This document shows positions 3,459 to 27,588 of a stretch of 27,676 nt of DNA, in pieces; positions within the stretch are counted from its first letter, which is position 1; every line of letters starts with the position of its first letter. The notes beneath the pieces were generated by a model. The model was not told where the DNA came from and made no database searches. It saw nothing but the letters and a program-made list of their open reading frames with translations. Made by a program: the position numbers and the translations under genes. This DNA is from a virus. The stretch spans positions 1-27,676 of IMG/VR virus record IMGVR_UViG_3300034684_000301. One strand, written 5' to 3'.

Positions 3459-3682
3459 TGTACAACAAAGGTATGACAGATATAAATGAAAAAACGGGGA
3501 TGTGTAAAATCTGTGGATGCACATGGGATAATGCATGCTTCCATCCAGATTTCGGAACATGCTGGTGGATAAATGAAGAAGAAACAATTTGCTCTCATTG
3601 TAGCATCCCAGAAATTAGAGACAGCGAAGAAACAGAACATTATAACATGGATTCAACTGAATACGAAAATGACAACAATTAA
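3458..3682 (+). CDS. Small cysteine-rich zinc-ribbon-like protein
   Basis: This 74-residue protein contains seven cysteines in its first 50 residues: CKICGC (16-21), C27, C35 and CSHC (45-48), with WDNACFHPDFGTCWW between. The pattern C-x2-C-x-C-x5-C ... C-W-W ... C-x2-C matches the small CxxCGCTxxxAC...CWW...C..C proteins common in phages and presumably binds zinc. The tail (49-74) is acidic and disordered. The ATG at 3458 overlaps the upstream TGA; a second ATG at 3473 would also keep every cysteine. The 3' end overlaps the primase/helicase start. Confidence 0.65.
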   Translation: MYNKGMTDINEKTGMCKICGCTWDNACFHPDFGTCWWINEEETICSHCSIPEIRDSEETEHYNMDSTEYENDNN

Positions 3683-4928
3683 ACTCCCTGAAATAACGTC
3701 CAATAGCCTACAATTCGTTGATGATAGGATCCAGGATATTGTGGATACAATCAACGAAGCGTTTATAGTAAAAACATCATGCCTGGATCCTGCTAAATTT
3801 TCAATTGAGAGCAAAGACAAAAACAGGTACCGGTATACTCCAACAATAGACACCCTATATCTTTACCTAAAAGGTATTGGGAAAACAATATCAAGAACCG
3901 ACCTGAGGATAATTCTCAGAGATCAAAATTATTTTGAGCAGGAAAATCCGGTGATAAACTATTTCAATAGCATCCGAGGAACCTACAAGGGTGAAAGTCA
4001 CATCGACAAACTATGTGAACATATCACACCGCGTGTATTCGATCATGAACCGGATTATTACCGTGAAAGAATGAATAAGATCATACGTAAGTGGATGGTG
4101 GCAAGCGTTGCTCAATGGATAGATGCGATTCCGAACTCTATAGCACTCGGTTTTATTTCAATGGAGGAATATATCGGCAAAACATTTTTAACGCGATATT
4201 TCCTGCCAAAAGAGCTGGAATCATACTATGTACAGCCGGAGAATGATAGCAAGTTTTCCCTTTCTGATGTGTTCACCAGGTACCTGATCGTTTGCTTTGA
4301 TGACCTGGTTGGTATTAACAAAGGCACCGCTCGTATTGAAGAGTTCAAAAAATACACCCGTTCAAGGATGATCCTTGTGCAGCGCAGGAACGACGAGTAT
4401 CCGGTAGAACAACCACGTGTAGCTGTTCCCATGTTTACGGCCAACAGGACCGCGGAAATGGGTGGCTTTCTTTCTCAAATCCATGGTACCAGTCGTTTCG
4501 GTACAATAGAAGTTGAGAAAATTGATAAACGGTATTCACAAAGGGTTAAAGTTGATCAGATGTGGGCCGAAGCACTTATGCTTTATGAAAATACCGATTT
4601 TGACGCACATTACAGTGACGAAGAGATTCAGGAACTACAGGAGTACAACCAGAGATACATGATCCAAACCGATGAAGAAAAATACATCAGGCTTTATGTT
4701 TCCACTCCAGATCCAAATGATGACGTTGATGATTCTGAATGGTTGACAGCAAGTGAAATCCTATCACACCTGAGAAGGAACCGGAAGATCCTCTCCGGCG
4801 ACTTGATTCGAATAACTCCCCAAAACATCGGTAAAGCTTTGACATCAATTGGTTTCACAAAAGAATCAAAGCGTGTAACATCCAAATCATACCCCGAATA
4901 TAGATATCATGTTAGGTTTAATTTTTAA
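3669..4928 (+). CDS. VapE-like (virulence-associated E) primase/helicase
   Basis: This is the replication protein of the element, 419 residues from the ATG at 3669. That start fits the overlapping gene style; the frame is open further upstream to 3573 but that would run through the zinc-ribbon gene. The layout follows the VapE/DUF3874 family: an N-terminal region, a P-loop ATPase core with GKT at residues 170-172, a Walker-B-like stretch LIVCFDDL with D211-D212, an arginine-rich segment (FKKYTRSRMILVQRR), and a C-terminal winged-helix-like domain (WLTASEILSHLRRNRK ... NIGKALTSIGF). The Walker A motif is unusual: the first glycine is replaced by Met (MEEYIGKT), so ATP binding may be weakened. 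It is followed by an AT-rich repeat region that may be its origin. Confidence 0.7.
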   Translation: MTTIKLPEITSNSLQFVDDRIQDIVDTINEAFIVKTSCLDPAKFSIESKDKNRYRYTPTIDTLYLYLKGIGKTISRTDLRIILRDQNYFEQENPVINYFNSIRGTYKGESHIDKLCEHITPRVFDHEPDYYRERMNKIIRKWMVASVAQWIDAIPNSIALGFISMEEYIGKTFLTRYFLPKELESYYVQPENDSKFSLSDVFTRYLIVCFDDLVGINKGTARIEEFKKYTRSRMILVQRRNDEYPVEQPRVAVPMFTANRTAEMGGFLSQIHGTSRFGTIEVEKIDKRYSQRVKVDQMWAEALMLYENTDFDAHYSDEEIQELQEYNQRYMIQTDEEKYIRLYVSTPDPNDDVDDSEWLTASEILSHLRRNRKILSGDLIRITPQNIGKALTSIGFTKESKRVTSKSYPEYRYHVRFNF

Positions 4929-13451: not shown

Positions 13452-14210
13452 ATGATTATGGACAGTTGGCCCAACTTAAATAACCCACCAGTAGTTGCAG
13501 CAATATTCCAATTGAAATACGTTGCAAAAGAATTAAGTATAAATAGTTTTCTAACACTAGATTCTCAAATTAAGAATAATCTTCCACACCGGAGCGATAA
13601 TATTCATGTAGGAATAGATCTTGGGAACTCATCTATTCCTCTTGGCGTTTCATCAATTCATGCTAAATCTGACGCAAAAATCAATTCATATGTTTATTCT
13701 TCAGAGGACAAAAAAACCAAACTTGAAATAACGGAGAATTCAGTAACTTTCATCGATGAATCTCCATATATAGGATGGAGTCATTTTAAAGAATCAGCTA
13801 CAAAATTTTTCAATATATTATCAGAAATATTAAATAAGACAAAGATTGTAAGGACATCCATTCGTTTTATTAACCGATTCTCATTTGAGAAATTTGATAG
13901 TCCTGAAGAATACTTTAATACGCTCATTTCAAGCACTAATGATGGAGAATTACCATATCCAGTTCAACAATACGGTTTTAAAATTATAATGGTAGTACCA
14001 AATAGCAACATCCATTCAATAGTTAATCAAAATGTTGAAGTTGTTCCACCGAGCCCTTTTAATTATACTTTTGATATTGACGTCTTAGATAAAGATGAGT
14101 ATCCTTTTAATATTGTAATTATCACTGAAAAATCTGAATCTCTTCGAGAAATAAAAAATAAAATTTTTTTCGAAAATATCACACAAAAAACTATTGACTT
14201 ATGCAATTAG
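13452..14210 (+). CDS. TIGR04255-family-like protein, first gene of accessory cassette
   Basis: This 252-residue protein matches the pattern I know for the sporadically distributed TIGR04255 family, of unknown biochemical function: an N-terminal NPPVVAAIFQLKY segment, the YIGWSHF motif (106-112), and RTSIRFINRF (134-143) corresponding to the conserved R-Y-I-N. The length is normal for the family. ATGs at 13452 and 13458 are both possible starts. The gene is visibly AT-rich (about one third G+C by eye) compared with the late genes. It overlaps the next gene by 10 nt, so the three genes to 15114 form one operon. TIGR04255 proteins turn up patchily in mobile regions, which suggests an accessory or defence-type role; that is inference. 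Confidence 0.65.
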   Translation: MIMDSWPNLNNPPVVAAIFQLKYVAKELSINSFLTLDSQIKNNLPHRSDNIHVGIDLGNSSIPLGVSSIHAKSDAKINSYVYSSEDKKTKLEITENSVTFIDESPYIGWSHFKESATKFFNILSEILNKTKIVRTSIRFINRFSFEKFDSPEEYFNTLISSTNDGELPYPVQQYGFKIIMVVPNSNIHSIVNQNVEVVPPSPFNYTFDIDVLDKDEYPFNIVIITEKSESLREIKNKIFFENITQKTIDLCN

Positions 14211-14656
14211 CGAACTTGTCACACAGAATGAAACCTATCACGCTGGCAATAGGCCTATTGTCAACTGCTAATTCATTCACTTACGCTTCTATCGATTCTT
14301 ATAGTGGGATTTTGAGCAATTCTGAAGATGTTAGGATAAAAGATTATATCAATAGTGTTGACTATAACGATTCATTCCTATACTTAAACAAAATCAAGTT
14401 TCAGGATCATTTAAAAAAATGGGAAACTAATACAATGTTCCTGTCATCTACAAAGGCAATTATTGAAGACAAGGATTTTCAAGCAATAGTTTCAATGGGG
14501 TATTCTGCTGTTCAATTTATAATTGAAGAAATTGAAAATAACCCTTCAACTCTTGTTTGGGCATTAAATCTAATCTTTAATAAGAAAATAACCAATAATC
14601 CTAACGCTACTATTTCTGAAGCATGTAAGTTATGGGTCCAACACTTGAAGAAGTAA
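14201..14656 (+). CDS. Helical accessory protein, partner of the Cys-His hydrolase-like gene
   Basis: This 151-residue protein (or 142 from the ATG at 14228) contains LKKWETNTMFLSSTKAIIED, then FQAIVSMGYSAVQFIIEEIE, then WALNLIFNKK and EACKLWVQHLKK. This follows a small family I remember as commonly encoded beside the NCIAxA hydrolase-like proteins (W...T...S...II.MG..aip.Il.El ... Wl). It overlaps the upstream gene by 10 nt and the downstream gene by 25 nt, so tightly coupled translation and a joint complex are likely. The N terminus is mildly hydrophobic (ITLAIGLLSTANSF) but has no clear signal cleavage site. Function unknown. Confidence 0.55.
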   Translation: MQLANLSHRMKPITLAIGLLSTANSFTYASIDSYSGILSNSEDVRIKDYINSVDYNDSFLYLNKIKFQDHLKKWETNTMFLSSTKAIIEDKDFQAIVSMGYSAVQFIIEEIENNPSTLVWALNLIFNKKITNNPNATISEACKLWVQHLKK

Positions 14657-15114
14657 CTTATATAATACTAAGAGCTTTCCCAAATTTATCTTCTGATAAA
14701 TATTTCAAAGTAACGAGTAAAAATACGCCAGTTTATAACTGTATTGCTTGGGCTTATAATATTACGGATCGTTGGATGTGGCCTAATACGGGAGAGAATT
14801 ATTTTCTTGATGGAGTTCATTATTGGCCATCTGACAAGATTATGGACTGTGATGTTCAAAATTTCATCGATGCATTTAGATTAAAGGGATACGAACTATG
14901 TGAAGATGGAGTTTTTGAAGAAGGGTTTAGGAAGATTGCTTTGTATGTAGTACCTAATACTACAGAATGTAGACATGCAGCTAGACAACTATCTAATGGA
15001 TGTTGGACGAGTAAACTAGGAAGATTAAATGATATACAGCATGGTACTCCAGAATCTATTGAAGGAACAGAATATGGTATTGTTTATTGTTTTATGAAAC
15101 GAAAATTTGAATAA
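14632..15114 (+). CDS. Cys-His hydrolase-like protein (DUF7689-like)
   Basis: This 160-residue protein carries conserved elements in the order NCIAWA (C37), WMWP (48-51), YWP (64-66), RHAARQL (H115), GCWTSKLG (123-130) and DIQHGT (D134, H137), ending in YGIVYCFMKR. I associate this arrangement with a widespread family of unknown function (probably DUF7689). An early Cys, a later His and an Asp/His are compatible with a papain/NlpC-like or transglutaminase-like active site, but catalysis is not shown. All motif residues are present, so the protein is intact. It is the last gene of the accessory operon and ends 20 nt before a terminator. It could be a toxin or effector kept in check by the two upstream proteins; this is speculation. 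Confidence 0.6.
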   Translation: MGPTLEEVTYIILRAFPNLSSDKYFKVTSKNTPVYNCIAWAYNITDRWMWPNTGENYFLDGVHYWPSDKIMDCDVQNFIDAFRLKGYELCEDGVFEEGFRKIALYVVPNTTECRHAARQLSNGCWTSKLGRLNDIQHGTPESIEGTEYGIVYCFMKRKFE

Positions 15115-15134
15115 CTTTCAATACATTCAATGAG

Positions 15135-15156
15135 ACCCCGATTTTTCGGGGTTTTT
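15135..15156 (+). terminator. Intrinsic terminator of the three-gene cassette
   Basis: ACCCCG/CGGGGT stem (6 bp), 6-nt loop, followed by TTTTT. It lies 20 nt after the stop codon of the hydrolase-like gene. Its right arm is the start of the 46-bp direct repeat. Confidence 0.85.
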
Positions 15157-15188
15157 CTTTGCTATGTGAAAACTTATGCTGATATTTG
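15143..15188 (+). repeat. 46-bp direct repeat, copy 1 (terminator arm plus promoter)
   Basis: Identical over 46 bp to 16255-16300. It spans the right arm and T-run of a terminator and then a complete promoter (TTTTTCTTTG-N17-CTGATATTTG). The 1.07-kb segment between the copies holds two accessory genes. Confidence 0.9.
15152..15188 (+). promoter_or_regulatory. Accessory promoter P2 (TTTTTCTTTG-N17-CTGATATTTG)
   Basis: It has the same boxes and spacing as the early promoter at 631-667 but lacks the palindromic operator that follows there. It would start about 20 nt upstream of the small gene at 15216 and should also be active in a lysogen. Confidence 0.6.
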
Positions 15189-15215
15189 ATTCTTAACAAT
15201 CTTAAACGCCAATTA

Positions 15216-15404
15216 ATGGAAGATAAATACAATGCCTTTATTTTTAACCCTGGGAATGACAACCCGATTGGAGAAGCGAGAGGAAAAAGTATATCTGAAT
15301 TGAGACACTGGGCCATTAGAAATGCTATAGGCTATAATGGTAAAGGTGGTAGAATTATTGTTCAGGATAAAAAGACCGAAAGAATTTGGATGTTTATTTC
15401 TTAA
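15216..15404 (+). CDS. Small accessory protein of unknown function
   Basis: This 62-residue protein starts at the ATG 15216, about 20 nt after the predicted transcription start; the frame is open further upstream but without an ATG. It has an N-terminal segment MEDKYNAFIFNPGNDNPIGE, a helix (SISELRHWAIRNAIGY) and a C-terminal beta-like strand (GGRIIVQDKKTERIWMFIS). It has no recognised family and no signal or membrane segment. It forms a two-gene unit with the lipoprotein 11 nt downstream, and the unit is bounded by direct repeats. Confidence 0.55.
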   Translation: MEDKYNAFIFNPGNDNPIGEARGKSISELRHWAIRNAIGYNGKGGRIIVQDKKTERIWMFIS

Positions 15405-15415
15405 ATTATTATGAT

Positions 15416-16216
15416 ATGAAAAATGTGTTGATAGTCACCTGTTTGATAATTATTACATCATGCAGCAATGAATTAAAAAAGGAGAATGAAACTCTTAGAA
15501 GCGAAATATCAAGGCTTGAGTCTGAAAATAAGTCTCTGAAAAGTGAACTGATTTCGTTTAAAATGGATCCTGAATTATTATTTGCAAATGCAGAAAAATT
15601 CTATTCAGAAAAAAATGTTGATTCACTCAAAAGTATCATAGTCAGTTTGGAGAGGTATCACCCCATGTCTGAAATGAAAGATAAAATTTCAATCATGATA
15701 TCCGACATCAACGCAGAACTAGAAAAACAAAAAAAAGACGAAGAGCAAAAGAGGCTCAAAGCTGTTAATAAATTAAAGAAATCAGTCGATGATGTATCAG
15801 GTACAACATGGTATAAAAACCCATACTTTACACACTACACAAACAGGAATCTGACTTCACTTTATATTGGGAAGAGTGGATCAACTGTGTGGCTAAGATT
15901 GTTAATGTCATACACTGGAGATGATTGGATATTTTTTGAAAACGCATATTTATCTTACGAGGGTAATACCAAAGAAATTTACTTTGATAAATATGATGAC
16001 AAAGAGACAGAAGTCGGGAATGGTGGAGTCTGGGAATGGATTGATGTAGTTGTTAATGACTCTGACTTAAATTTCCTAAAACAAATGGCAGAATCAAATG
16101 ATTGCAAAATGAGACTTTCAGGAAAATATACCAAAACAAGAAACTTATCATTGAATGAAAGGAAAGCAATAACTGACGTTCTCCTAGCATACGATGTATT
16201 AAAAAATGAAAAATGA
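15416..16216 (+). CDS. Lipoprotein with coiled coil, candidate lysogenic-conversion or exclusion factor
   Basis: From the ATG at 15416 the 266-residue protein starts with a lipoprotein signal (MKNVLIVTCLIIITSC, lipobox cysteine C16). A coiled coil follows (NELKKENETLRSEISRLESE and onward), then a linker with helices, and a C-terminal domain beginning near WYKNPYFTHYTNRNLTSLYI and containing YTGDDWIFFENAYLSYEG. It should sit in the envelope facing the periplasm or cell surface. In a prophage accessory unit with its own promoter and terminator, a lipoprotein is a natural candidate for superinfection exclusion or altered host surface. No family name is recognised for the C-terminal domain. The gene is AT-rich like its neighbours in the block. 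Confidence 0.65.
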   Translation: MKNVLIVTCLIIITSCSNELKKENETLRSEISRLESENKSLKSELISFKMDPELLFANAEKFYSEKNVDSLKSIIVSLERYHPMSEMKDKISIMISDINAELEKQKKDEEQKRLKAVNKLKKSVDDVSGTTWYKNPYFTHYTNRNLTSLYIGKSGSTVWLRLLMSYTGDDWIFFENAYLSYEGNTKEIYFDKYDDKETEVGNGGVWEWIDVVVNDSDLNFLKQMAESNDCKMRLSGKYTKTRNLSLNERKAITDVLLAYDVLKNEK

Positions 16217-16243
16217 AAAATGATAAACTTTACAGATTTCTCC

Positions 16244-16268
16244 AACCCCGAAAATTTTCGGGGTTTTT
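16244..16268 (+). terminator. Intrinsic terminator of the lipoprotein unit
   Basis: A perfect 22-bp palindrome with arms AACCCCGAAAA and TTTTCGGGGTT, followed by further T. It lies 27 nt after the lipoprotein stop codon. The same terminator, with a slightly different loop, ends the preceding cassette at 15135. Confidence 0.85.
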
Positions 16269-16300
16269 CTTTGCTATGTGAAAACTTATGCTGATATTTG
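16255..16300 (+). repeat. 46-bp direct repeat, copy 2 (terminator arm plus promoter)
   Basis: Perfect copy of 15143-15188. Homologous recombination between the two would delete the small gene and lipoprotein while leaving one terminator-promoter junction intact. Confidence 0.9.
16264..16300 (+). promoter_or_regulatory. Accessory promoter P3 (TTTTTCTTTG-N17-CTGATATTTG)
   Basis: It has the same boxes as P2 and the early promoter, and 16 bases through the -7 box match the early promoter (658-673). Transcription from here would produce a leader of nearly 200 nt before the gene at 16502, passing two terminator-like structures. Confidence 0.6.
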
Positions 16301-16328
16301 CACTGTCTAAGTTTTTTAATTCGTAAGA

Positions 16329-16367
16329 GGCAATGGATATTGCCGGAAGAGTCTGGCATTTTTTTTT
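16329..16367 (+). promoter_or_regulatory. Attenuator: mutually exclusive hairpins before a T-run
   Basis: Hairpin 1 is GGCAAT-ggat-ATTGCC (16329-16344). Hairpin 2 is TGCCGGA-agag-TCTGGCA (16341-16358), followed by nine T, a standard intrinsic terminator. The two share bases 16341-16344, so only one can form at a time: the first would act as antiterminator. The arrangement lies about 25 nt after the predicted start of the P3 transcript. Confidence 0.45.
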
Positions 16368-16388
16368 ATCCATTTCTATAAGATTTAT

Positions 16389-16478
16389 GGCGGTTTCGCC
16401 CCGTGCGTTGGCTGTAATGGCCACGCGAGCCTTTTACGAAAGACTTAGACAACGGGTAGCGAAACCGTTCTTTTTTTT
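16389..16478 (+). ncRNA. Predicted three-way-junction RNA ending in an intrinsic terminator
   Basis: A closing stem CGGTTTCGC+CCCGT (16391-16404) pairs with ACGGG+GCGAAACCG (16452-16467, two-base bulge). It encloses two hairpins: GCGT-t-GGC/GCC-ACGC (16405-16426) and CTTT/AAAG around a TACG loop (16431-16442). Eight T follow after one base. The 3' end is 24 nt before the ATG at 16502, so it may be a regulatory leader or the end of a small RNA. A 51-codon ORF (16333-16488) runs through it. It matches no riboswitch class I know. Confidence 0.4.
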
Positions 16479-16501
16479 AATGTCTTAAAATTTCGTAAGT
16501 T

Positions 16502-16765
16502 ATGAGCAAAGAAACTGTGGCAGTGATGCCGGAAATTAACCAGGAAAGCAGCGAGATCCCGCTGTATTATCGTGAACGCTTGAGCAACTCCACGCTCGGT
16601 GAATTCAAAAAGAAAGTTGAAGAACTCCTCTCTGCCATCGATGATGAAGAGAAAGAAACTCCTGTTCGAATGCTGGTTGAACAGAAACACAAAGAGTACA
16701 GCATTGCATGCTGGTCCGGTGAAGCGTTTTTGAGATTCACGTTTGACAAAGGAAGGAGGTTCTGA
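16502..16765 (+). CDS. Small protein of unknown function
   Basis: This 87-residue protein is the first of three overlapping small genes behind the structured leader. It is charged and mainly helical (TLGEFKKKVEELLSAIDDEE), ending in SIACWSGEAFLRFTFDKGRR. No motif or membrane segment is seen. Its last bases carry AGGAGG, a rare good Shine-Dalgarno sequence in this window, placed to initiate the next gene at 16765. Confidence 0.55.
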   Translation: MSKETVAVMPEINQESSEIPLYYRERLSNSTLGEFKKKVEELLSAIDDEEKETPVRMLVEQKHKEYSIACWSGEAFLRFTFDKGRRF

Positions 16766-17052
16766 TGGATGATGTAACAAAACCGGTAATGGCATTGAAT
16801 CCATACACCAACAAGTTAGTGAACGTGGAACCCCTTTTCAGATTCATCCGTTCACACGATGACGGGAGAGACCTGGTGGATGAATTGATTCGCCACTTGA
16901 TCATCAACGATGATTGTGAAACGACTGATTACGTATTTGAACACTTCAATGGCAAACAAGGCATGTACTTTTACCTGTACGATTTGCGAGATTTGTTTAA
17001 AGAGATGGCAGAATGTCAGATATCCATGCCTAAAAAAGGGGGTGAGGTATGA
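16765..17052 (+). CDS. Small protein of unknown function
   Basis: This 95-residue acidic protein starts on the last base of the previous stop codon, with AGGAGG 5-10 nt upstream. It contains NKLVNVEPLFRFIRSHDDGR and DLVDELIRHLIINDDCETTD, then YVFEHFNGKQGMYFYLYDLR. No known family. It is translationally coupled to both neighbours. Confidence 0.55.
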   Translation: MDDVTKPVMALNPYTNKLVNVEPLFRFIRSHDDGRDLVDELIRHLIINDDCETTDYVFEHFNGKQGMYFYLYDLRDLFKEMAECQISMPKKGGEV

Positions 17053-17306
17053 ACAATGACAATATCGATTGGAAATTTGTGCTTCTTAGCCGCTGGGCCG
17101 GTGAATACCCACCCGCCGGGCAGGATGAGGATCACATCTTGAAAAGCAGTCAGGAAATTGCCGATGATCTCCGCGGTGCCGGTGAATTTACCGCGGACGA
17201 AGTAAGCATGTTTCTTGCAACTCAGGGATACAGGGTGGTTTTTGAAAATGGATATCCATTCTGGGCAGTGAAAAATGAATCGCTTCACAATTTAATCAAG
17301 GAATGA
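17049..17306 (+). CDS. Small protein of unknown function
   Basis: This 85-residue protein starts by ATGA overlap with the upstream gene. It contains WAGEYPPAGQDEDHILKSSQ, a helix EIADDLRGAGEFTADEVSMF, and LATQGYRVVFENGYPFWAVK; the middle-to-C-terminal part reads like a winged-helix or adaptor-type fold, but no family is recognised. An intrinsic terminator follows 16 nt after the stop codon, closing the three-gene unit. Anti-defence or regulatory roles are possible for such small overlapping phage genes, without evidence here. Confidence 0.55.
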   Translation: MNNDNIDWKFVLLSRWAGEYPPAGQDEDHILKSSQEIADDLRGAGEFTADEVSMFLATQGYRVVFENGYPFWAVKNESLHNLIKE

Positions 17307-24678: not shown

Positions 24679-27588
24679 ATGGCACAGGATATAGATTTAG
24701 GAAAAATATCGCTCACCCCGAAAGGAACATGGACAATGGATGTACAAGTTGAGTATAACGACGTGTGGGCCTATAGTAATGCGAAGTTCCTTGCCTTACA
24801 GAATTCCAAAGGTGTCGCCCCGTCCGACGACGGAGTGTATTGGTATCAACTTTCATTATCCGGGGATAGTGCTTACGAAGTAGCTATTAAACAGGGATTT
24901 GTCGGGACGGAAGAGGAATGGATACAGTCGCTGAAACAACCGGCTACTGACGCGGCCGCGATGGCTACGGCTGCAGTTGAGAGCATGGATGTCAGGTATG
25001 GGGAGAAGATCGAAGAAATTAAAACCGAATTGGAATCCACTGTTGACGATGCCGTAGCCGACCGGGTTGCAAGACCGCTACTTATCTCTGAAAAGGAAAT
25101 AAAGGTCGGTGCCTATAAAATAGGAGGTGAAGACATTGACATATACGAACGTAGTGTAAGGCTACTCGACTTACCCCAGTCAGTGGATGAGACCATCGAT
25201 TATGTAGTTGCCGATGAGCCGCTTGGCTACGGACTTTATTTTAAAGTTGAGTCGCTTGTTGTTTCTACAGGTAAAGGTCTAAGTGCTCAATTTTTTAATC
25301 AAAATTATGAAGTATCAGGTTATGTGATAAATAATGATTTTCAATCTGTCATTACGATAAAATGTAAAGCCGCTGTGCCCGATGCTGTCGACGGAATACT
25401 TCATGTCAGGTATTGCAAGTTTGAGGGTGAAATGATAGAAATGACGTTAAATTTATCAACCTCTGACCCGATTGACACGACTAACTTTATTATTCCACCT
25501 TTAAAATATAACAAGAAGTTTGCTATAAGTATGTCAACTGATGACACTGGGGCAGACGATTACGCAAAGATATTTCAGTATTTCAATGGTGGTTTTATCA
25601 ATAGTCTTGTTGATGGAAATCATTATTGGCATAACGGAATGCTTTTCCCAGACGGTGGATGGCTTTCACGTGCATTGACTTATACTGATGGCTGTGGTGT
25701 TCAAAGGAGATTCCCTGTTCAATCTGCATCATGGTTTAATCTAAGAAATCAGTATTGGAGTGGTCCAGTAAAAGATATTGAACCTATTGAGCTTACACGT
25801 TCAGCCAGCGGATGGCCCTTCCTTTATTGGCAAGATATTGAGGAGATGCTTGATTTTGATGGTGCTGTTTCATTGCATGATGTGCAAGACCCAGCAGTAG
25901 ATGATTATGCTGGGGGTACTATCCAAGAGATTATTAATGGTATTAATGACGCTCAAGATAATTATATCTATCCGAGATTGGGACGCAAGCTGCTTATCAT
26001 GACAGAGCCAAATGGAGATTATAAGTATGTAGAGGCAGCATTACAAATCCCAGAGATTAAACTGATTACAAGACAACAATCAGAAGGAGGTTTCAGTGTT
26101 ATCGATGTAAATACTATCGACATCTCAACGAAGGTTAAATTGATAAGATATTTCAGTGATAGTGGATCTTTGCAGTCGCATAAAGACTGGTTTCTTGCGA
26201 ATATTATCGCTCCATCTCTATCTAACGGAGATAAGATGTATGGAGATTTTGGTATGCATGGTTTTGGACAAAATGGTGGGTCTTATACGTTTGAAACATT
26301 ACCAACAATGAATAAGCCAATGTTCTTTGATTGGCTTTGCGATACCTATGGAGAAGAGGGTTCGGATGAACTGTGGTTCTGCACACAAGACGAGTTTATA
26401 TGTTATCAGTTAACAAAAGCGCAAACCACTATAAAAGTGGTACAAGAAGTTGATAAGGTGCACTTAAAAATATTCATACCCAGAATACCTAATGTTCATT
26501 GGAACGAGATTTCAATTTTATATGAGGGCGCCAATCTTCCTGTAACAAGTGTAGAAGTACCTGGTAGCGTGGTAACACTATCTCACGCAAATACAACGGA
26601 TGGATTTATGATAAATTTAAGTACAAATGACAGATTACTTGTTAATGCTGAAAAATATACCTCATACTTTGAAAGCGTATATGATAGCGAAGAAACGGGA
26701 TTAGTGAAGTATGCTCTTGGTAATGCCAACTATTTTATCCAACGGCTTAATCCTGCTTTACAGAATCCTTTCACTTCACGGATACAAGCACTAATAGCAG
26801 CACCCACCTTGATATCCATTGTAATAAATGGGGGTGAATTAACTACACAGTCGCAATCTGTCTCTATCACTATCAATAAGACTGGTGGTAATCCCACGCA
26901 TTATAGAGCAGGTGAGTCCAGTGATTTGTCAGCCGTATCTTGGATACCGTATGTGAGTGATGATGTAACTTTCTTCCTGTCTGATCAGTTTGGAGCTAAA
27001 ACAGTTTATCTTCAATTAATGAACGCTTTTGGAAATTCATTAGTTGTGTCAGATACCATTGAACTTGTTGAGGCTGACCTTGCACTCAATAGCATCACGA
27101 TCAATGGTGGCGATTTGTCAACGAACGATCCGGTTGTTTCCATCTTGTTCAATTTTGTAGGATCAGCAACACATTATATGGTTAGTGAAAGTTCTATATT
27201 TGACGGAGCATCTTGGGTTGCAATGGAAAACCCGGTAAATTTCACACTCTCTTCAGGTTCTTATGGAAGTAAAACGGTTTACGCTAAGTTGAAAAACGAT
27301 AACACCTTAATAACAAGCGACACAAAAAGCGCCACAATAGAATTGCTGGATACAGTAACAATCGTGCTTGATTCTATTCAGATTAATGGTGGCGACAGTT
27401 ATACTGGGTCTGATAGTGTTTTGATAACTCCGTCATACTCAAACACACCAACCCATTACAGGGTGGGCGAGTCAGCTGATCTTTCTCTGGAAACTTGGAT
27501 TCCTTATACTTCGGGTGATATTTCATACACTTTATCTACTGGCTATGGAGTTAACCCACATTGCAGCTTGATCATGAATAGAAGTTAA
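24679..27588 (+). CDS. Large tail spike / receptor-binding protein with deacetylase-like domain and Ig-like repeats
   Basis: This 969-residue protein has an N-terminal anchor (1-130) with WAYSNAKFLALQNSKGVAPS and the fibre motif GFVGTEEEWIQSLK. A middle domain around 279-600 begins KKFAISMSTDDTGADDY, where D288-D289 match the NodB-type DD of polysaccharide deacetylase-like domains, and has H400 in SLHDV. Three C-terminal repeats of about 93 residues start near 710, 802 and 896; each has INGG and a THYxxxES segment. The third repeat is cut short, ending MNRS. From about 25240 on the DNA is AT-richer than before, a sign of mosaic exchange between anchor and receptor-binding part. It probably binds and modifies host capsular polysaccharide. 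Confidence 0.7.
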   Translation: MAQDIDLGKISLTPKGTWTMDVQVEYNDVWAYSNAKFLALQNSKGVAPSDDGVYWYQLSLSGDSAYEVAIKQGFVGTEEEWIQSLKQPATDAAAMATAAVESMDVRYGEKIEEIKTELESTVDDAVADRVARPLLISEKEIKVGAYKIGGEDIDIYERSVRLLDLPQSVDETIDYVVADEPLGYGLYFKVESLVVSTGKGLSAQFFNQNYEVSGYVINNDFQSVITIKCKAAVPDAVDGILHVRYCKFEGEMIEMTLNLSTSDPIDTTNFIIPPLKYNKKFAISMSTDDTGADDYAKIFQYFNGGFINSLVDGNHYWHNGMLFPDGGWLSRALTYTDGCGVQRRFPVQSASWFNLRNQYWSGPVKDIEPIELTRSASGWPFLYWQDIEEMLDFDGAVSLHDVQDPAVDDYAGGTIQEIINGINDAQDNYIYPRLGRKLLIMTEPNGDYKYVEAALQIPEIKLITRQQSEGGFSVIDVNTIDISTKVKLIRYFSDSGSLQSHKDWFLANIIAPSLSNGDKMYGDFGMHGFGQNGGSYTFETLPTMNKPMFFDWLCDTYGEEGSDELWFCTQDEFICYQLTKAQTTIKVVQEVDKVHLKIFIPRIPNVHWNEISILYEGANLPVTSVEVPGSVVTLSHANTTDGFMINLSTNDRLLVNAEKYTSYFESVYDSEETGLVKYALGNANYFIQRLNPALQNPFTSRIQALIAAPTLISIVINGGELTTQSQSVSITINKTGGNPTHYRAGESSDLSAVSWIPYVSDDVTFFLSDQFGAKTVYLQLMNAFGNSLVVSDTIELVEADLALNSITINGGDLSTNDPVVSILFNFVGSATHYMVSESSIFDGASWVAMENPVNFTLSSGSYGSKTVYAKLKNDNTLITSDTKSATIELLDTVTIVLDSIQINGGDSYTGSDSVLITPSYSNTPTHYRVGESADLSLETWIPYTSGDISYTLSTGYGVNPHCSLIMNRS

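Follow-up and report, generated by a model that had tools for sequence, protein, structure and literature searches.

A candidate antisense-RNA attenuation module, resembling the immunity RNAs of P4 and P1, in the leader of a Bacteroidales phage operon

The leader of three small genes in a 27,676-base virus record (IMG/VR record IMGVR_UViG_3300034684_000301, the whole of which is referred to here as the window) is probably a module for attenuation by antisense RNA in a temperate Bacteroidales phage, working like the CI RNA of P4 and the C4 RNA of P1. Its main feature, which a first-pass annotation of the DNA had missed, is that two separate segments, 16304-16331 (A) and 16481-16499 (A''), are both complementary to a third, 16429-16451 (A'), that lies between them inside a stem-junction RNA formed by the helices P2 and P3. 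The predicted duplex energies are -28.4 kcal/mol for A:A' and -13.9 kcal/mol for A'':A'. The parts of the leader and the genes behind it are as follows, in window coordinates.

16271..16300, plus strand: Bacteroidales-type promoter (TTG at 16271-16273, 19-nt spacer, GATATTTG at 16293-16300; consensus TAnnTTTG)
16304..16331, plus strand: segment A, upstream target complementary to A', located where the RNA is predicted to begin (duplex energy, family covariation)
16329..16344, plus strand: antiterminator hairpin GGCAAU/AUUGCC, its 5' arm overlapping the 3' end of A (sequence)
16341..16367, plus strand: T1, first intrinsic terminator (7-bp stem, T9)
16389..16404, plus strand: 5' strand of P2, the closing stem (covariation)
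16405..16426, plus strand: P3 hairpin with conserved UGUAAUG/UUAAUG loop (covariation)
16429..16451, plus strand: A', antisense to both A and A''; hypervariable
16452..16478, plus strand: 3' strand of P2 (16452-16469) and T8, which together make up T2, the second intrinsic terminator, where a small RNA is predicted to end
16481..16499, plus strand: A'', second copy of A, two bases 5' of the ATG at 16502, in the ribosome-binding region (duplex energy, covariation)
16502..16765, plus strand: first regulated gene, 87 aa, no family assigned
16765..17052, plus strand: second small gene, 95 aa, no family assigned
17049..17306, plus strand: third small gene, 85 aa, no family assigned; homologues in loci L004 and L006

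Much of what the first-pass annotation had described in this region was found in the sequence. The hairpins GGCAAT-ATTGCC (16329-16344) and TGCC...GGCA with T9 (16341-16367) do share positions 16341-16344, which is where the antiterminator and T1 of the window overlap, and the P2-closed fold, its terminal T8 ending at 16478 and the spacing to the ATG at 16502 were likewise as described. The promoter just upstream is also present, and it is of the Bacteroidales form with no match to sigma-70, placing the probable transcript start at about 16305. In the wider family the promoter TTTG lies directly 5' of A in 50 of 53 members, and a correctly spaced TTG is present in 41 of the 53. P2 of the window comprises 11 and 5 pairs separated by a UA bulge, and the region 16386-16482 folds at -36.2 kcal/mol (z -4.3), an energy equalled by none of 200 shuffled sequences. 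The complete 202-nt leader folds 4.4 sd below its shuffles, and, unlike the fold drawn earlier, its minimum-energy structure rests on A:A' pairing.

Owing to the high variability of A' and P3, DNA patterns derived from the window had no match among viral and genome contigs, and a protein-guided search of the neighbouring genes was therefore needed. As the window is a 27,676-base virus record, relatives were sought through a 341-aa protein encoded downstream, and searches with this protein and with the third small gene returned the identical set of five viral contigs; a blastn comparison of the window's leader with phage and plasmid records gave no match. A first covariance model, for which L002, L004 and the window supplied the sequences, also picked up relatives outside its training set, namely L005/L006 (E 1.7e-5) and L003 (E 0.006). 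A second model, built from four lineages, located members in 19 of 393 Bacteroidales genomes at E <=0.01 (best 6e-18), a count whose weakest four matches (E 0.002-0.009) include some that were later rejected, and in only two of 395 genomes sampled phylum-wide at E 1e-4. A pattern of the common core matched 25 IMG/VR contigs, all 25 of which were confirmed by the model. Named phage records with a member were those of an uncultured human faecal phage and of Bacteroides phage BS-TP3, an isolated phage of B. salyersiae with an integrase gene near the module. After removal of identical copies, Bacteroidales genomes, IMG/VR contigs and phage records together gave about 57 non-redundant members; the leader was not detected in the distant genome relatives L007-L009. 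The matches at L062-L064 were rejected as members, minus-strand model matches to the element itself were discounted as an effect of the palindromic P2, and the weak model matches of L061 as well as a variant at L042:14814 were left out of the covariation counts.

The Rfam search that the first-pass annotation had called for gave no family at the gathering threshold, whether for the window, for L003, L004 and L006 or for the sixteen genome loci L020-L035, and permissive E-values added chance-level matches only; the C4 model (RF01695) was unmatched in window 16200-16560 even at E up to 10. A literature search of partial coverage found no paper describing such an element. A survey of structured-RNA candidates from human microbiomes (PMC8040213) mentions a palindromic Bacteroidetes motif near phage genes. 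By sequence, structure, host group and the arrangement of terminators and antiterminator, the family stands separate, and it was found neither in Rfam nor in the literature searched, while its mode of action would be of a known kind.

The suspicion that the element is conserved as RNA and not as protein proved well founded, as the pairs of P2 and P3 covary and no reading frame is conserved. In an alignment of 55 members, which was fitted to the model and hence favours the structure, 97.8% of the P2/P3 cells hold standard pairs as compared to 75.9% in shuffles, and double changes occur at 15 of 20 pairs (202 cells, against 41.7 in shuffles). Shifting the pairing by one to three columns of this alignment abolishes the signal. 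RNAalifold independently gives P2 and P3, with double changes at 18 of its 22 pairs, and the alignment of four lineages presents a similar picture on a small scale (five pairs with double changes). Positions that hardly vary are the unpaired UAAUG in the loop of P3 and, in P2, the inner strands CCCGU/ACGGG. Of the three-way junction proposed earlier, P2 and P3 are accordingly retained on the strength of their covariation, whereas the third hairpin, inside A', appears in RNAalifold only as a weak one.

In contrast to this constant core, the segments A, A' and A'' change together from one relative to the next while the layout of the leader is kept. They read TGTCTAAG, CTTAGACA and TGTCTTAA in the window, TGCTAAAG, CTTTAGCA and TGCTAAAA in L004, GATCTACA, TGTAGATC and again GATCTACA in L003, and GTCTTACA, TGTAAGAC and again GTCTTACA in L006. 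We took the nine nucleotides at the 3' end of A' as a seed and scored it by Watson-Crick matches. Against the member's own upstream region the seed reached at least 8 of 9 in 48 of 55 members, compared to 2.3% against the regions of other members; against the own downstream region it reached at least 7 in 36 of 55, compared to 14% for those of others. When the 41 distinct seeds were considered, the average match was 7.78 in the own leader and 5.74 (sd 0.12) after permutation, and 6.95 as compared to 5.69 (sd 0.11) downstream; none of 10,000 permutations was as high in either case, values that are not strict probabilities since the members are related. The specificity extends to the 5' half of A', which likewise matches no A but its own (7.80 vs. 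6.36, sd 0.11). Downstream, the match of the seed usually reads NNNNNNCAAAATG, so that its end meets the start codon; several members (e.g., L048, L049, L050, and L090) have a weak A'' or none.

The two-stage attenuator suggested by the first-pass annotation is borne out in that T1, T2 and an overlapping antiterminator were all found. Of 53 members, 45 have a T1 that a simple scan could detect in the stretch from A to P2, and in 43 of these 45 an antiterminator shares the 5' arm of T1 and makes use of the 3' end of A, usually GGC. The mean energies of antiterminator and T1 (-7.7 and -8.3 kcal/mol) are nearly equal, as expected for a switch. The nested minimum-energy fold of the full leader contains A:A' and lacks P2 in 49 of 51 members, and when A is masked P2/T2 forms in 50 of 51. 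Since A:A' and P2 cross, a nested fold excludes one of them by construction, and these counts consequently indicate a preference and not mutual exclusion.

From these parts, and by analogy with the RNAs of P4 and P1/P7, we propose the following mode of action. Transcription would begin at segment A, and transcripts that pass T1 would yield a folded P2/P3 RNA that presents A' and has its 3' end at T2. Such an A' RNA from a resident copy would pair with A of a nascent transcript and capture the GGC of the antiterminator, upon which T1 would form and transcription stop. With A occupied, the nascent A' could no longer be captured by A, P2 would close, and T2 would terminate as well, while in any messenger that escapes A' would pair with A'' at the ribosome-binding region and block translation. 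When no A' RNA is present, as on entry into a naive cell or at induction, A would instead pair with its own A', opening P2/T2 and leaving A'' free, and the operon would be expressed, presumably as part of the control of lysogeny. Because its own A is predicted to be a stronger partner for A' than A'' is, a free A' RNA would need either processing or excess.

The main rival is a switch acting solely in cis, in which A' of one transcript chooses between A (on) and A'' (translation off), with the timing set by a protein, by RNA processing or by how fast transcription proceeds. All three segments do lie on one transcript and covary, and the intramolecular A:A' pairing is the predicted fold of the complete leader, as such a switch would have it. 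On the other hand, it gives no reason for a strong T2 between A' and A'', the known analogues work in trans, and it leaves unexplained three members (L040:7070, L041:5900, and L048:5312) that carry P2/P3 and A' with no matching A upstream. The latter are expected if the A' domain acts alone and thus favour action in trans, although they could also be decaying copies. Altogether we regard a switch confined to cis as unlikely.

A riboswitch for a metabolite or ion, with the three-way junction as its aptamer, is a very improbable reading, although the first-pass annotation had named a riboswitch-like leader among its readings and a conserved P2/P3 core with invariant CCCGUG, UAAUG and ACGGG, placed in a leader with terminators, would be compatible with it. 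The junction segment that would have to form the aptamer is the hypervariable one, an antisense segment that is complementary to and covaries with two distant targets, and nothing in it suggests an aptamer; moreover, the window and the loci searched are without an Rfam match, and the downstream genes are phage regulators or small unassigned genes, none of them metabolic. Equally hard to sustain is an element acting as DNA, in which a recombinase or repressor would recognise A and A' as inverted repeats. A/A' are indeed inverted, A'' is a direct copy of A and the repeats diverge together; yet covariation of individual pairs is also seen in P2 and P3, which are not repeated outside the element, the mismatches between A and A' are rich in G-U, and a promoter and two terminators flank the element. 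Attenuation through a leader peptide, for which the 51-codon open reading frame noted at 16333-16488 does exist, can practically be dismissed, as L004, among the nearest relatives, already has the frame shifted, the element is spanned by no open frame in 8 of 57 members and by differing ones in the others, and base pairs are maintained through double changes. Similar short proteins of other Bacteroidales, suggested earlier as MAVSPRALAVMATRAFY-like, were not confirmed: degenerate patterns matched nothing, and the start MAVSPRA recurs only in L004, where it results from translation of the P2 5' strand.

The antisense-RNA module that we favour over these readings has its closest likenesses in two phage systems. 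Transcription in P4 is ended prematurely by the CI RNA through its pairing with seqA and seqC (PMC4825925). The layout seqA - CI/seqB - seqC is matched in the window and the family by a structured antisense RNA in the leader of the operon it would control, with complementary sites upstream and downstream in one transcript, and control by premature termination has its counterpart in the predicted terminators and overlapping antiterminator. In contrast to P4, the upstream site here lies at the predicted 5' end of the RNA and overlaps an antiterminator/intrinsic-terminator pair, the downstream site abuts the start codon, the hosts are others, and sequence and fold differ, as judged from the published description of P4. 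In P1 and P7, the C4 RNA (RF01695, with c4-a1b1 listed alongside) blocks the ant mRNA at its ribosome-binding site and is the basis of heteroimmunity (PMC12197685; PMC8546580). Shared with C4 are a leader-encoded antisense to the ribosome-binding region of the next gene, present in the window as A':A'' and in the family, and a specificity that differs between relatives. The C4 operon often encodes antirepressors; in the family antirepressor-type genes follow the leader at 13 loci, and the three genes of the window have no assigned family. The C4 model of Rfam is nonetheless unmatched, the hosts are Bacteroidales instead of Proteobacteria, and the promoter, the T1/antiterminator and the terminator-type P2 are different. 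The IsrK/anrP leader of Gifsy-1, sar of P22 and STnc6030 of BTP1 are also prophage RNAs that control antirepressor synthesis or superinfection, and they lack the A-A'-A'' layout with covarying specificity. Plasmid attenuators such as those of pT181 and pIP501 work by binding of an antisense RNA that disrupts an antiterminator and lets a terminator form, with the antisense coming from the opposite strand, whereas in the Bacteroidales module it is contained in the same transcript. The module looks like an unrecorded counterpart of the P4/P1 antisense-RNA immunity switches.

The genes behind the leader support an antirepressor role for the family, although those of the window are not recognisable antirepressors. 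An antirepressor-type protein is among the first three downstream genes in 13 loci: Bro-N with or without KilAC/ANT in L045, L060, L051, L054, L056, L058, and L059, Rha in L052, L065, and L078, P22_AR_N in L003 and L079, and KilA-N with ANT in L073. At the other loci, including the window, the downstream genes are small and without a recognised family. The three window genes sit among structural genes, between the terminase and the tail-side genes, and may be late or accessory.

Elsewhere in the window, cargo-like genes, including one for a DUF7689 protein (14632-15114), occupy 13452-16216 between terminase and leader, a position at which L004 carries other genes. The structural block ends with a 969-aa protein with a polysaccharide deacetylase-like domain (Polysacc_deac_3; 24679-27588), and the early region encodes a LuxR-type (GerE) regulator (984-1370) and a VapE-like protein (3573-4928).

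Little is known of how gut Bacteroidales phages regulate lysogeny, and descriptions of P4/P1-like RNA immunity come from proteobacterial phages. Since each member carries its own antisense specificity together with both target sites in a form readable from sequence, the family could be used to predict immunity groups of Bacteroidales phages, and it would allow direct tests of antisense attenuation, with a member present in the isolated phage BS-TP3. A further possibility, about which we are rather doubtful, is a dispersed immunity made of RNA only, with interchangeable, guide-like specificities, in which phages differ in A', modules coexist and orphans serve as antisense defence against heteroimmune phages. 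The module at L040:7070-7165 is an orphan in that it has neither A nor A''; genome G112, in which it resides, contains no intact target for its seed, and a matching target is found in a module of another genome (G359, C2:283136). Among 25 pairs of co-resident modules none had identical specificities, which an identity of 1.7% would likewise predict to be almost none.

Several modules with different A' specificities share one genome or contig in L040 (7070, 7279, and 7688), L041 (5900 and 6109), L042 (5742, 6134, and 15206), L070, L074, and L075, those of L040 and L042 standing in tandem 5' of paralogous small genes (MKKTVVLPVSQAKEGRKTSALE...). At L042:14814-14910 and directly upstream of L040:7070 lies a second, distant subtype, CGGCTGTCTTTCC...ACGGGAAATGGCAGCCG, which has neither A nor T1. 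Its A', AAGATGGTTTGTTTGGC, shows 17-nt complementarity to the sequence immediately 5' of the next start codon, and a promoter-like TATTTG motif adjoins the fold; this subtype may be a stand-alone antisense RNA.
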